Source: an uncultured Acidimicrobiales bacterium (lineage in GTDB: Bacteria > Actinomycetota > Acidimicrobiia > Acidimicrobiales > SHLQ01). From it: a stretch of DNA of 51,847 bases. This document shows positions 6,385 through 41,871 of this stretch, piece by piece. The position numbers and the translations under genes were made by a program. The DNA lies in NCBI GenBank assembly GCA_938038785.1, contig CALHTB010000071.1:1-51847 (forward strand). The letters run 5' to 3'. The notes under the pieces were generated by a model, which was not told where the DNA came from, made no database searches, and was given only the letters and a program-made list of their open reading frames with translations. Position 1 is the stretch's first letter; each line of letters begins with the position of its first letter.

Positions 6385-7620
6385 TCACTTCGACGGACGC
6401 GGCTTCTTGGCTGCTGCGGCTGCGAATTCGAGTGCCTCGTCCCATGAACAGCGCTCGGCGATCTTGCGCCTGAATTGCATAACCGGGCGGGGGCGATTCA
6501 GTCCGAACACACCGGTGAGCTGACCGTCACGTCCAAATATCGTCGCGAAGCGATCGTCCTCGACGGACCCATCGATGATCTGCATCTCGTCAGTGCCGAG
6601 CGGTCGTCCGGCGAGCTGAATCTTGTAGCTGTATTGATCGCTCCAGAACCACGGCACCGGGGCAAACGGATCGGCCTCGACGCCAGCGATCCTCCGCCCC
6701 ACATACGTTCCTTGTTCGACCGCGTTCTCCCAGTGTTCGATACGCATCCGTTCGCCGCCGAAGGCTTCGTTCGGAAAGCAGGCCACGTCTCCCGCGGCAT
6801 AGATGTTCGGAGCTGCCTCGCAGCGTTCGTTGGTCACAACACCATTGCCGAGGGTCGGGTCGAGCTCGAGCGTCGAGTCGGCAAGCCACTCGGTGTTCGG
6901 GACAACACCGATGCCAACGACCACTACGTCGGCATCGAGCATCGAGCCATCCACCAGCTCAACACGGTCGACCGCACTATCGCCGTGCAGCCCCGCTACA
7001 GCCGTGGAGAGCCGGAGATCCACTCCTTCGCGCCGATGGAGATCGCCGCAAATCTTGCCGATCACCGGGCCTAGGCCACGTTCCATAGGCACAGCAGCGG
7101 CTTCGACCAGCGTCACCTGATGCCCGGCGCCATGGGCGGTGGCAGCAACTTCTGCGCCGATAAAGCCAGCTCCGATGACCACGACCTTCTTCGGGCCCGA
7201 CGACAGGTCGGCGTGAAGCGAGGCTGAATCATCGATCGTTCGAACGACGTGAACACCGCCGACGCCATCGGCGTCTGGCAGCTGACGCGGCCGAGCTCCG
7301 GTGGCAATCACGATTGATTCGGCCGATAGCTCCTCGCCTTCGTCGAGAGTTACCGTCCTGGTCGCGACGTTGAGTCCGACCGCACGACGGCCAGGTAAGA
7401 ACGTGATGTCGAGCTCGTCCCACTCCGTGGGTTGAACGAGGGCGAGACGGTCGGCCTCCCATTCGCCCGAGAGGAACTGCTTCGACAACGGAGGCCGATC
7501 GTAAGGACAGTGAGTCTCGTCGCCAACGAGGGTGATCTCACCGTCGAAGTCCGCACGGCGCAGTGCTGTCGCGCATCGGATTCCGGCGAGCGAGGCACCG
7601 ACGATCAAAACGCTGGTCAT
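6385..7620 (-). CDS. FAD-dependent ferredoxin/rubredoxin reductase
   Basis: A 411-residue flavoprotein that would pass electrons from NAD(P)H to a ferredoxin feeding an oxygenase or P450. An N-terminal FAD site (VLIVGASLAG), an NAD site near residue 147 (VVVIGAGFIGAEVA), the ANIYAAGDVA-like flavin loop (APNIYAAGDVACF) and a reductase C-terminal domain mark the BphA4/HcaD-type family. No ferredoxin or Rieske gene adjoins it, so the partner is elsewhere. Its start overlaps the aminotransferase stop by 4 bp, indicating translational coupling downstream of that gene. Confidence 0.88.
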   Translation of the reverse strand: MTSVLIVGASLAGIRCATALRRADFDGEITLVGDETHCPYDRPPLSKQFLSGEWEADRLALVQPTEWDELDITFLPGRRAVGLNVATRTVTLDEGEELSAESIVIATGARPRQLPDADGVGGVHVVRTIDDSASLHADLSSGPKKVVVIGAGFIGAEVAATAHGAGHQVTLVEAAAVPMERGLGPVIGKICGDLHRREGVDLRLSTAVAGLHGDSAVDRVELVDGSMLDADVVVVGIGVVPNTEWLADSTLELDPTLGNGVVTNERCEAAPNIYAAGDVACFPNEAFGGERMRIEHWENAVEQGTYVGRRIAGVEADPFAPVPWFWSDQYSYKIQLAGRPLGTDEMQIIDGSVEDDRFATIFGRDGQLTGVFGLNRPRPVMQFRRKIAERCSWDEALEFAAAAAKKPRPSK

Positions 7621-38694: not shown

Positions 38695-38739
38695 GGAATC
38701 TGGGGAGTCTGATCATGCGTTACGCATGATCAGACTCCC
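38695..38739. repeat. Hairpin repeat, right copy, bracketing the AbiEi/DUF559-type gene
   Basis: GGGAGTCTGATCATGCG (38703-38719) pairs perfectly with 38723-38739 across a 3-nt loop. With the left copy at 37703 it forms direct repeats about 1 kb apart, each itself a hairpin, around one gene. Confidence 0.88.
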
Positions 38740-38814
38740 GAGAACTCAGTGTTGGCGACAGTACTGGTGGGGTGTGACGTTGGCCGTTTGCGCAGGGAAG
38801 TGCAAGAGTCGACT

Positions 38815-40269
38815 ATGAACAAACTCGCCACTGATGGTCTTGTTACAGATGGGCTTGTTGCCTTCGTCAAACGTGACTGTGCAACGTGCGAGATGCTTGT
38901 GCCGGTTCTCGAACAGCTTCGGGCCGCCGACCCGACGCTGATGATCATCACGCAGGACGATCCAACCTTTCCTGCGCTCGACGATGTGATGCATGATGCG
39001 GACCTGTCCATGTCGTGGCATGCCGAGATCGAAACTGTTCCGACGTTGATGAAGCGGTCCGACGGAGTCGAAGTCGACCGGGTTTTTGGCTGGCACCGTG
39101 AGCAGTGGGAAGCGCTGACCGACGTCGATGAACTCGGACCCGACCTTCCTGTGATGCGACCGGGTTGCGGCTCGATGAGCGTCGACCCCGATGTGGCTGA
39201 TTCACTGTCGGCCAAGTTCGGTGGTGCGGGTACCAGCAGCCGTCGCGTGGAGTTCGCCGAGCTCGAAGATCCATTCGAAGCGATGTACGACCGCGGATGG
39301 AGTGACGGCCTTCCGCTCGTTCCACCAACCCCCGAGCGAGTTGAACGGATGCTCGCCGGAACGAGCCGCGCTCCCAACGACATCGTCGCTATCATTCCCC
39401 CGAACCTGGTCGAGGCCTCGGTCGAAAAAGTGGCCATCAATGCAGTCATGGCGGGGTGCGCTCCGGAGTACCTACCAGTGGTGCTTGCCGGCGTAGAGGC
39501 CGTCTGCAACGACGACTTCAACATGCACGGCGTGCTCGCTACCACCATGGGTGTTGGCCCGATTCTCATCGTCAACGGTCCAATTCGTCACGACCTGCAA
39601 ATGAACTCAGGCATGAACGTTTTCGGACCGGGAAACCGAGCGAACATGACGATTGGCCGCGCCGTTGCGCTGTGCGTTCGAAACATTGGTGGTGGGCGAC
39701 CGGGAGAGATCGACCGGTCGACGCACGGCCAGCCAGGCAAGTTCGGCCTGTGCTTCCCTGAGGATGAAGAGGGTTCGCCGTGGGCCAGCCTCGCCCAGGA
39801 GCGCGGTTTTGATGCTGAGACGAACACGGTGACGGCATTCTGCGGCGAGGCGCCGCGCATCGTCTTCGATCAGATGAGTAGAACACCCGAGTCGCTTACC
39901 GCGTCGATTGCGAGCGTCATGTTAGGCAACGTGCACCCGCGCATCACCGGCATGGACACCGTGCTGGCCTTGTGCCCCGAACACATGGCCCGGTTCACCG
40001 ACGCTGGCTGGACGAAAGAACAGTTCGAAACCGAGCTCCGCAGCCACCTCGACATCGAGGTTGATGACATTCTCCGCGGAGTCGACAACATCGGCGAGGG
40101 CATCCCACCCGGCCTCGGGTTCGAAGGAGCGCAGCTTCCTAAGTTCCGCGAAGGCGGCATCCTCATCGTGCACGCCGGCGGCCCTGCCGGTTTGTTCAGC
40201 TCGGTAATCGGTGGATGGGTGAGCGGCCCAATGGGTAGTGTCCCCGTAACGAAGGAGATCGTGAAATGA
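38815..40269 (+). CDS. Thioredoxin-domain protein coupled to the UGSC selenoprotein
   Basis: A 484-residue protein. Residues 1-115 form a thioredoxin-like domain: FVKRDCATCEMLVPVLEQL has the C22-A-T-C25 pair, followed by TVPTLMKRSDG with a Thr-Val-Pro in place of the usual cis-Pro segment. From about 160 comes a larger domain (DPFEAMYDRGWSDGLPLVPP; GVGPILIVNGPI; VHAGGPAGLFSS) known to me only as a companion of UGSC proteins; its function is unknown. ATG 38815 is preferred over an upstream start inside the hairpin region. Its stop overlaps the selenoprotein start (ATGA), so the two are surely co-translated. Confidence 0.78.
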   Translation: MNKLATDGLVTDGLVAFVKRDCATCEMLVPVLEQLRAADPTLMIITQDDPTFPALDDVMHDADLSMSWHAEIETVPTLMKRSDGVEVDRVFGWHREQWEALTDVDELGPDLPVMRPGCGSMSVDPDVADSLSAKFGGAGTSSRRVEFAELEDPFEAMYDRGWSDGLPLVPPTPERVERMLAGTSRAPNDIVAIIPPNLVEASVEKVAINAVMAGCAPEYLPVVLAGVEAVCNDDFNMHGVLATTMGVGPILIVNGPIRHDLQMNSGMNVFGPGNRANMTIGRAVALCVRNIGGGRPGEIDRSTHGQPGKFGLCFPEDEEGSPWASLAQERGFDAETNTVTAFCGEAPRIVFDQMSRTPESLTASIASVMLGNVHPRITGMDTVLALCPEHMARFTDAGWTKEQFETELRSHLDIEVDDILRGVDNIGEGIPPGLGFEGAQLPKFREGGILIVHAGGPAGLFSSVIGGWVSGPMGSVPVTKEIVK

Positions 40270-40784
40270 CCTTGGCTGTGCTCGACCCGACCGATGAAAG
40301 TACACCGCAGGTGCGCGAGCGAGTCGCTCGCCCAGAGTCGCTCGCCGGGCTGACGGTGGCGTTGCTCGACATCTCGAAGCCTCGGGGCAATGTGTTTCTC
40401 GATCAGGTGCAGAACCGCTTGCAAGACCTGGATGTCAAGGTGGTTCGCTACACCAAGCCAACGTTTGCCAAGCCAGCGCCTGCCGACCTGCGCCACGAGA
40501 TCGCAACCCGCTGTGATGCAGTCATCGAGGCGCTAGCTGATTGAGGCAGTTGTACGACGTGCAGTGTGCACGACATCAACAACCTCGAACGCAGCGGCAT
40601 CCCGGGCGTTTTTGTGGCCTCGATGCCTTTCGTTGACGCCGCCGAAGCTCAAGCTGAACGCCTAGGGTTCGACGCAGCCCGGGTGTTCGTCGAGCATCCA
40701 ATCCAGGACCGCACCGACGAAGAGATGTACGCCATTGCCGACCAGGCAGTAGACGAACTCATCAGCCTCATCACCGGTCCGTAG
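40266..40784 (+). CDS. UGSC-family selenoprotein (in-frame TGA at 40542 read as Sec93)
   Basis: Read through the TGA at 40542-40544, one frame gives 172 residues. The N-terminal half has a beta-alpha fold (LTVALLDISKPRGNVFLDQV); residue 93 is the TGA, followed by G-S-C-T-T-C-S-V-H-D, exactly the U-G-S-C motif that names the family. After it the frame continues without a break: RSGIPGVFVASMPFVDAAEA and the C-terminus to TAG 40784. Sec93 and C96 form a U-x-x-C redox pair, with C99 near. The thioredoxin-domain gene is coupled upstream by 4-bp overlap. A 6-bp stem with a GTG loop lies 14-28 nt beyond the TGA. Cys-containing homologues are expected in other organisms. The reaction is unknown; redox or detoxification chemistry is likely. 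selA, selB, selC and selD are not in this window. Confidence 0.85.
40545..40577 (+). promoter_or_regulatory. Candidate bacterial SECIS element
   Basis: Arms CGTGCA (40558-40563) and TGCACG (40567-40572) close the apical loop GTG at 40564-40566. The first loop base is G and lies 20 nt beyond the TGA, within the 16-37 nt span and G-in-loop rule reported for bacterial SECIS elements. One more G-C pair forms beyond an A-A mismatch. The element is coding (TCSVHD), as in bacteria generally. Confidence 0.7.
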
Positions 40785-40880
40785 ACCTCGGGCACCGCAG
40801 AACACCTCGGCGTAGCGAGAGCGTCAGCTAGCTACGAGCGAGACGACTGCGTTCGGAGCTGTGTGAGTGGACGACCGCAG

Positions 40881-40915
40881 GCCGACTTCTGCAGCGAGCG
40901 AAGCGATGCGAAGCC
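40881..40915 (+). repeat. AGCGAGCG-AGCGATGCG dispersed repeat, copy 2
   Basis: Block order GCCGACTT, AGCGAGCGAAGCGATGCG, AAGCC parallels 31906-31942. The 190-bp interval 40785-40974 holds no gene; 40813-40850 also contains the related GTAGCGAGAGCG and TACGAGCGAGACG. Confidence 0.5.
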
Positions 40916-40974
40916 AAGGCCGAGGATCGGCCGATCACACTGCGGGAGAGCGCAGTCGCCGGAGACCGAGACGG

Positions 40975-41871
40975 TTAGCTGGCGCGCTTGGCGGCTTTTG
41001 CTTCGAGCTTTTCGGCGCGGGCGACCAACATGTCGGGCATCGCCATGAGGTCCGAACGAGCTTGATCGGCTTCGGAGCTCAGACCTTCGAGCTTGTCGAT
41101 CTTCCAGTCGCGCAGCACGGGAGCGATGATCTTCTCGGCGTGAATGCGCAGATCGTAGATCTCGGCCCGCGCCGCGTGGGCAGCGCGCTTGCGGAACCGG
41201 GGCACAACGGTGCCAGGCATGTTGAAGTTCTCGTAGACCTTCTTCATCGACAAGATGCACGTCGAGGGGTCGTGTTGCATCATGGCGGCCACGATGCCCT
41301 TGTAGAAGATGTAGTGGTAGTTCTCATCGGCGGCCACACGCTTCATGATCTCGTAGGCCTTCTCATCATCGGCCTTCACGCCGGTGTTGCGATGCGAGAC
41401 GCGGGTGGCCAGCTCTTGGGCCGACGTGTAGACGAAGATGTCGACCGGGTCGGTCCATGGGCTATCCCAGCCTTTCGAGATGGTGGCCATGCGGTCGTCT
41501 TCGAGCGCAACCGGATCGCAATTGCGGCTGATCATCAAGTAGTCACGAATGACGATTGCGTGCTGGTTCTCTTCGGCAGTCCACCGCCGGGTCCATCGAC
41601 CGAGCGGGGAGTCAGCTGGGAAGTGGCTCGCGATCGAGAAGTGGTAGTAGGGCAAGTTGTCTTCGGTAAGAAGGTTGAGCACGAGCGCCTCGCGCACCTC
41701 GGGGCTTATCGTGCACTGCGATTCGTCCCACGGTTCGTCGACGAAGCTTCGGCCGTCTTCCCACGAAATGAGGTCGTGCGCGTACCAGGTCGGGCGTTTC
41801 TCGATGTGATCAGCCATGAGCCGTTCGATGTCGCCCTCGACGGCAGAGATGAGTTCGTGTTGCGCAGTCAT
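40975..41871 (-). CDS. Acyl-[ACP] desaturase, ferritin-like di-iron
   Basis: A 298-residue soluble di-iron desaturase of the plant stearoyl-ACP/mycobacterial DesA type, which inserts a double bond into ACP- or CoA-bound fatty acids. Iron ligands fit the pattern E70, E101-x2-H104 (EENQH), E153 and E183-x2-H186 (DENYH). No membrane segment. The C-terminal tail EKLEAKAAKRAS is basic. It stands alone; electrons would come from a ferredoxin. Exact chain length and position of desaturation unknown. Confidence 0.88.
   Translation of the reverse strand: MTAQHELISAVEGDIERLMADHIEKRPTWYAHDLISWEDGRSFVDEPWDESQCTISPEVREALVLNLLTEDNLPYYHFSIASHFPADSPLGRWTRRWTAEENQHAIVIRDYLMISRNCDPVALEDDRMATISKGWDSPWTDPVDIFVYTSAQELATRVSHRNTGVKADDEKAYEIMKRVAADENYHYIFYKGIVAAMMQHDPSTCILSMKKVYENFNMPGTVVPRFRKRAAHAARAEIYDLRIHAEKIIAPVLRDWKIDKLEGLSSEADQARSDLMAMPDMLVARAEKLEAKAAKRAS

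Follow-up and report, generated by a model that had tools for sequence, protein, structure and literature searches.

The window analysed here, a stretch of 51,847 nucleotides from an uncultured Acidimicrobiales bacterium, contains a reading frame that starts at ATG 40266, meets an in-frame TGA at 40542 and continues to the next in-frame stop, TAG 40782-40784. The locus raises the question of whether this TGA is read as selenocysteine (Sec) and, if so, with which partner and in what type of reaction the selenoprotein acts. A sequence-only reading had assigned the frame to the UGSC selenoproteins, with Sec at residue 93, and had expected a standard gene caller to report two short proteins. The frame was confirmed on the sequence, and the mechanical ORF list splits it into a product of 92 aa and a 72-aa piece starting at GTG 40566. 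The relevant features are collected in Table 1; the partner gene listed there was absent from the sequence-only reading.

Table 1. Features of the UGSC locus, in window positions.
Feature	Position	Strand	Remarks and basis
Partner gene, 484 aa: thioredoxin-like domain and unnamed C-terminal domain	38815..40269	+	alternative start GTG 38749
CxxC of the thioredoxin-like domain (Cys22, Cys25)	38878..38889	+	invariant in 32 aligned partners
Cys118 codon of the partner (PG-C-GS)	39166..39168	+	in-frame TGA instead in one clade of relatives
Partner C-terminal domain	39259..40266	+	no credible Pfam/NCBIfam match, no PDB fold match
ATGA overlap of partner stop (TGA) and UGSC start (ATG)	40266..40269	+	sequence, ORF list
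UGSC-family selenoprotein gene	40266..40784	+	172 aa, Sec = residue 93; PF24696, NF041046, TGA in relatives
Predicted Sec codon TGA (Sec93 in U-G-S-C-T-T-C)	40542..40544	+	frame, codons of relatives
Predicted bacterial SECIS core: 6-bp stem, loop GTG	40558..40572	+	conserved in 93/93, fold, pair covariation

Family membership and the in-frame TGA

The read-through product matches PF24696 along residues 5-170 (E 2.4e-44, 151.9 bits against a cut-off of 25) and scores 157.6 bits with NF041046, for which the curated cut-off is 125. The Sec or Cys that the family requires in its [U/C]GSC motif is present. A sequence match of UGSC to solved structures was not found.

Relatives in reference genomes were searched with a query carrying Cys at the Sec site and with search patterns that left the Sec codon uncovered, so that the search was not biased toward TGA. 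The best 80 of 205 relatives, i.e. the nearest ones, were analysed. All 80 have TGA at the codon for Sec93, and the protein is strongly conserved on both sides of it (40 aligned sequences). The replacement by other residues and the decay behind the codon, which the sequence-only reading had named as signs against Sec, are not seen in these relatives, and the homologues of the Cys form examined have Cys at the site. Genes without an internal stop account for at least seven UGSC rows in the sampled order (G012, G019, G053 twice, G127, G143 and a fragment in G121). Among the matches listed, G012 has at least ten UGSC matches and G119 at least six, which suggests paralogues, perhaps for different substrates.

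If TGA 40542 were a real stop, the frame would be a pseudogene, the result of a sequencing error or a pair of short proteins. The split in the ORF list and the failure to detect selA in the assembly are in keeping with this, but the nearest 80 relatives, which by record title belong to several phyla, share the TGA and its conserved flanks, a hairpin with a compensatory pair follows it, and tRNA-Sec, selB and selD are present (see below), so we give a real stop hardly any credence. Chance or error as the origin of the TGA was rejected on the codon of these relatives together with the conservation of the hairpin. Reassignment of TGA, for example to Trp, or read-through by a near-cognate tRNA is the least credible reading of all. 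All that speaks for it is that the frame stays open; the partner gene ends in TGA 275 nt upstream, and TGA therefore also serves as an ordinary stop. Moreover, the Cys-form homologues carry Cys rather than Trp at this codon, and a tRNA-Sec with anticodon TCA is present.

The SECIS hairpin

The 6-bp stem with a G-first loop that had been proposed from the sequence was found behind the TGA: C40558-A40563 pairs with T40567-G40572 around the loop GTG at 40564-40566, and 19 nt lie between TGA and loop. According to PMC13188914, bacterial SECIS elements have a loop of 3-9 nt, a stem of 4-16 bp and a G within the first two loop positions, mostly at a distance of 16-37 nt from the UGA; the present hairpin, with 6 bp, loop GUG and 19 nt, agrees with all of these. 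The 49-nt RNA folds with -17.5 kcal/mol (z = -2.38), and 4 of 200 shuffled sequences were as good.

Conservation was assessed in 93 of 101 loci (80 + 20 and the window), the eight dropped ones being those on the minus strand of their locus. All six stem pairs and the loop GTG are retained in the 93 sequences, and codons 7 and 8 after the TGA (Ser7-Val8) are AGT GTG in every one, against a background use in the same genes of AGT for 47 of 680 Ser codons and GTG for 388 of 1107 Val codons. None of the five Cys-form UGSC genes examined has AGT GTG. The pair 40559-40571 is G-C in 73 sequences, A-T in 17 and G-T in 3; its columns are the third positions of codons 5 and 9, and their mutual information exceeds that of every other pair among the 595 third-position pairs. 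In a test on 28 sequences all 168 cells were paired. Six cells carried a double change, where shuffling gave 1.9 on average and none of 500 shuffles reached six, but pairs with both sides altered were no more frequent than in shuffles (1 vs 0.9). Because four of the six stem pairs are invariant, the covariation rests on one pair. Judged by this pattern, the hairpin is under RNA-level selection, and the earlier call of a bacterial SECIS is borne out by the invariant AGT GTG and by the change from G-C to A-U in the covarying pair. Three snoRNA matches from an Rfam scan of 38700-41000 stayed below threshold and were regarded as noise.

Selenocysteine machinery in the genome and the order

The genome contains a tRNA-Sec (66 bits against an Rfam cut-off of 47, with ARAGORN concurring) as well as selB and selD, each over its cut-off. 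With the same cut-offs, tRNA-Sec passes in 5, selB in 2 and selD in 2 of 14 control genomes. Thus, selB and tRNA-Sec, whose absence would have counted against the sequence-only reading, are both present, and the Sec-decoding system that it had postulated holds for these three components; selA was not found in the assembly, which is 73% complete. The contig with selB extends just 87 bp beyond the selB match on its upstream side and ends in an apparent repeat, and in both same-genus genomes of a 148-genome sample (G027, G145) selA lies directly upstream of selB.

Within this sample of Acidimicrobiales, 87 of the 148 genomes have selA (E 1e-40). It occurs in 63 of 68 genomes with UGSC and in 24 of 80 others (Fisher p 8.8e-16). 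The co-occurrence was based on selA because selB at E 1e-40 does not discriminate, being found in 131 of 148 genomes (81 over cut-off). The UGSC genomes without selA are G000, G001 (84% complete), G018 (96%), G053 (98%) and G063 (78%); the UGSC match in G018 reaches only E 2.5e-4, and both UGSC matches in G053 are without TGA. Among the titles and abstract openings listed for selenoproteins in this lineage, nothing was on topic. The sequence-only reading had remarked that Sec decoding is not commonly noted in this actinobacterial lineage; since it is common in the order, the lineage looks under-described rather than unusual. From the frame, the hairpin and the gene content, UGA 40542 is almost certainly decoded as Sec, with SelB and tRNA-Sec acting under the direction of the hairpin at 40558-40572.

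A thioredoxin-like partner encoded upstream

The overlap of the UGSC start with the stop of the upstream gene suggests translational coupling. The first 100 residues of the upstream protein are thioredoxin-like and include the CxxC motif. TIGR01068 matches 29 of 32 partners (E up to 1); the whole-protein cut-off of 96.8 bits is not reached by the window's partner (20.3 bits), of which only the N-terminal domain is thioredoxin-like. Thioredoxins in the PDB match the partner by sequence (E 1e-4) and by fold (E 1.2e-3). The best 60 of 67 PDB sequence matches and the 50 fold matches listed are thioredoxin-type or apparently thioredoxin-containing entries, and those with a stated range cover the N-terminal part. 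For the C-terminal 330 residues, here called the C domain, no credible family was found in Pfam or NCBIfam (best E 0.011 and 0.13), nor a fold match among the 50 listed. This large domain is strongly conserved across the aligned partners.

Of the best 80 of 205 loci, 79 have a C domain encoded immediately before UGSC; the exception is L090, where the C domain is 3.2 kb upstream. The thioredoxin-like part is present in 75 of these 80. It is missing at contig ends in L057, L060 and L085, and in L066 and L075 a TGA-type UGSC is accompanied by a bare C domain, so the built-in thioredoxin is not universal. The Cys-form UGSC likewise adjoins a bare C domain in the three loci tested (L128, L131 and L132). 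On plasmids, which gave nine hits, the C domain is adjacent in all six loci examined, with Cys in UGSC in five and TGA in Acidovorax. The latter gene (L181, 6944-7438) is located next to its C domain on p2-T1 of Acidovorax sp. T1, a conjugative plasmid of the IncP group, and is preceded by IS elements; all that is annotated at the UGSC site is a short hypothetical protein (6926-7216).

The genome of the window encodes a further TGA-bearing UGSC, which is fused in-frame to a C domain (L124, contig C1, 1912-4218, minus strand). Its hairpin differs in sequence and has the same architecture, i.e. a 6-bp stem and a G-U-bearing loop. An aldehyde dehydrogenase gene is found near this fusion. The UGSC/C-domain pair thus occurs in both gene orders and as a fusion, and it spans records titled Actinomycetota, Myxococcota, Latescibacterota and Chloroflexota, beta-proteobacterial plasmids and haloarchaea. 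That the two genes are neighbours by descent only, with no joint function, would agree with the derivation of many loci from one class, where gene order persists, and with the distance in L090; given the taxonomic spread and the variable arrangement, it is very improbable. Instead, the gene arrangements make it highly likely that UGSC and its upstream partner act together as a pair.

The genes around the pair vary. Arthrobacter sp. ERGS1:01 has the order ABC transporter, hydrolase, phosphosulfolactate synthase, trxB, trxA, C domain, UGSC, and in Variovorax sp. SRS16 trxB precedes the pair with two other genes in between. Haloarchaeal clusters with a Cys-type pair contain a CoA transferase, an amidohydrolase or solute-binding proteins, and several Cys-type pairs lie near transporters, CoA transferase, amidohydrolase or Rieske genes. 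A phosphosulfolactate synthase homologue near a Cys-type pair in L178 and L179 (Arthrobacter and a haloarchaeal plasmid) is a possible clue to the substrate. Apart from the pair, the genes of the window's neighbourhood are not conserved across loci and point to no substrate, and clustering of neighbour frames, which antisense shadow frames confuse, gave no trusted conserved third gene.

A probable second selenocysteine in one clade of partners

Counting by profile gave 81 partner sequences, five of which do not cover site 118. In the 76 that do, the window included, the site is TGA in 16 and Cys (TGC/TGT) in 60, and nothing else. The 16 TGA partners form one side of a branch in a 76-row tree made by a quick method with the site masked (SH-aLRT 88); in a smaller tree of 66 rows with 12 Sec forms the support for the Sec branch is 95/90, and one Cys/Sec change suffices in both. 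Among 397 genomes of the order, a set that may overlap the 80 loci, at least 16 TGA-bearing partner rows were found, all from family f54 among the matches listed. All 16 f54 genomes with a partner match carry TGA among the matches listed (down to about E 1e-212), and the three genomes of this family within the 148-genome sample (G054, G096 and G128) all have selA.

A stem with loop CGG(G/T)(C/A) at 20 nt from this TGA has 7 of 8 pairs in 12 Sec forms and 8 of 8 in four, whereas in the Cys forms at most six pairs are found in 57 of 60 and seven in 3. Of the 16 Sec forms, seven lack pair 18-28 and five lack pair 14-32; the minimum-energy folds of 13 Sec-form partners often depart from the proposed stem, and their mean fold energy is -15.3, vs -13.6 (sd 4.6, n=72) for Cys forms. 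Since two pairs often fail and the energies barely differ from those of Cys forms, the partner hairpin is suggestive of a SECIS, with weaker support than for UGSC.

The partner thus also seems to contain selenocysteine in some marine relatives, and its TGA type, going by these codons, is apparently an uncatalogued second selenoprotein. Table 1 of a 2026 review (PMC13188914) holds no entry matchable to it, the NCBIfam models for GOS_B, GOS_C and hypothetical protein DG (PMC13188914) matched none of 32 partners, and no paper on a Sec-type partner was found in titles and abstract openings of the literature on UGSC and the selenoproteins of the lineage. The partners of L083 and L087, titled Bifidobacterium breve, cluster tightly with those of lake Actinobacteria and Acidimicrobiaceae, and these two titles look wrong.

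Predicted fold and similarity to GrdB

The structural model of UGSC (pLDDT 91.3, pTM 0.86), based on a 40-row alignment of the window and 39 of the 80 loci, predicts a five-stranded alpha/beta fold in which Sec93 is positioned immediately before helix 94-109. The best 50 fold matches listed are flavodoxins, lumazine synthases and others, with TM values of at most 0.54 by query length. A thioredoxin-like fold has been suggested for UGSC (PMC2398784); the predicted alpha/beta fold differs from it, and with no thioredoxin among the 50 matches listed the model does not support that assignment.

The sarcosine reductase B model matches 39 of 40 UGSC members and glycine reductase B 36 of 40 (best E 6.4e-6). 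In the window's UGSC the match covers residues 79-121, around Sec. Such matches extend over about 40-50 residues and stay far below the cut-offs (22.4 bits vs 602.2 for TIGR01917, 11.8 vs 300 for PrdB); the Pfam GrdB model did not appear for UGSC. Run against 12 of the 13 GrdB-like selenoproteins of the phylum, the UGSC profile gave E values of 2.5e-5 to 5e-3 in this database of 12, and Sec aligns with Sec in the two alignments printed in full. An hhalign comparison of UGSC with GrdB was short and weak (54 columns, E 5e-4, probability 31%). The GrdB-like selenoproteins (L135-L146) have one in-frame TGA; of 296 genomes sampled from the phylum 13 contain such a protein, and none of these proteins reaches the cut-off for glycine reductase.

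Proposed mechanism

Persistent pairing, natural fusion and the Cys-to-Sec replacement in the partner lead us to infer a two-protein module, in which UGSC would be one subunit and the upstream, probably translationally coupled thioredoxin/C-domain protein the other. Placed where a helix of the alpha/beta domain begins and supported by Cys96 and Cys99, Sec would attack a substrate held between UGSC and the C domain of the partner. The resulting selenide-sulfide could be resolved by the UGSC cysteines or by Cys118 of the partner, and re-reduction would be carried out by the partner's own thioredoxin CxxC. The scheme would follow the logic of the glycine and proline reductases (GrdB, PrdB), in what look like catabolic contexts of non-clostridial organisms. 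An organic substrate and a thioredoxin-driven reductase are proposed because of the weak GrdB link, the trxB/trxA neighbours and the Grd-like cluster content.

Alternatively, UGSC may be a general thiol peroxidase or disulfide reductase with an antioxidant role, the partner merely recycling it. The UxxC and CxxC motifs and the thioredoxin-like domain of the partner would suit such a role; the predicted alpha/beta fold with no thioredoxin among the listed matches, the transporter, CoA transferase, amidohydrolase or Rieske genes near several Cys-type pairs and the strong conservation of the partner's large C domain speak against it, and we consider it unlikely, though worth keeping in mind. The two-protein module of UGSC selenoprotein and partner, with thioredoxin-recharged reduction of the Grd/Prd type, is as a whole the explanation that we regard as probable. 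Of its parts, thioredoxin-driven reduction by the pair appears fairly probable from the domains and motifs, and bond cleavage of the Grd/Prd type in particular, which is argued by analogy, is proposed tentatively.

In its widest form, the proposal is that UGSC and the C domain constitute a widespread thioredoxin-driven selenium enzyme of the Grd/Prd type, found in bacteria and on haloarchaeal plasmids and cleaving an organic substrate, and that in one Acidimicrobiales family both subunits are selenoproteins, the partner having changed from Cys to Sec once, with its own SECIS. This is a possibility to which we give somewhat less than even weight. If true, both the selenoprotein family and the operon with two selenoproteins would be new. 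The near-constant partner, the built-in electron donor, the natural fusions and the transporter clusters would make the function of UGSC testable; the clade-specific Cys-to-Sec switch would mark a partner residue that is likely to touch the reaction; and with the Sec-type partner there would be one more selenoprotein truncated at its TGA by ordinary gene calling.

Comparison with known systems

Taken alone, the window's UGSC gene is an ordinary further member of an already named family. It matches NF041046 and PF24696 over its full length and above the curated cut-offs, has Sec at the naming motif and itself shows no difference from the family, the protein being a known but poorly understood redox protein. 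Beyond the known family, the present analysis contributes the partner, the second Sec site seen in one clade of partners and the link to GrdB.

GrdB and PrdB resemble UGSC in that Sec is opposite Sec in a U-G-x-x-T-x-C motif followed by L-E-R-x-G-I-P. Thioredoxin genes are adjacent in grd clusters and in some UGSC loci alike; trxB/trxA can be included in glycine reductase clusters (PMC4517662, PMC2897892). However, UGSC has 172 aa and GrdB about 430, the similarity being confined to some 40-60 residues, and the C domain of the partner has no detectable relation to GrdE or PrdA, the family models of which (Pfam, NCBIfam) matched none of 32 partners; a pyruvoyl-forming partner of the GrdE/PrdA type was thus not found in the UGSC system. 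We infer that UGSC works like GrdB or PrdB without belonging to those families.

A close counterpart of the pair itself is the UGSC/Unknown_1 fusion reported from Global Ocean Sampling (PMC2398784). Because the window's genome carries a similar UGSC/C-domain fusion, Unknown_1 probably corresponds to the C domain. In contrast to that fusion, the C domain in the window is encoded by a separate gene, in which it is joined to a thioredoxin-like domain and accompanied by a conserved Cys/Sec site.
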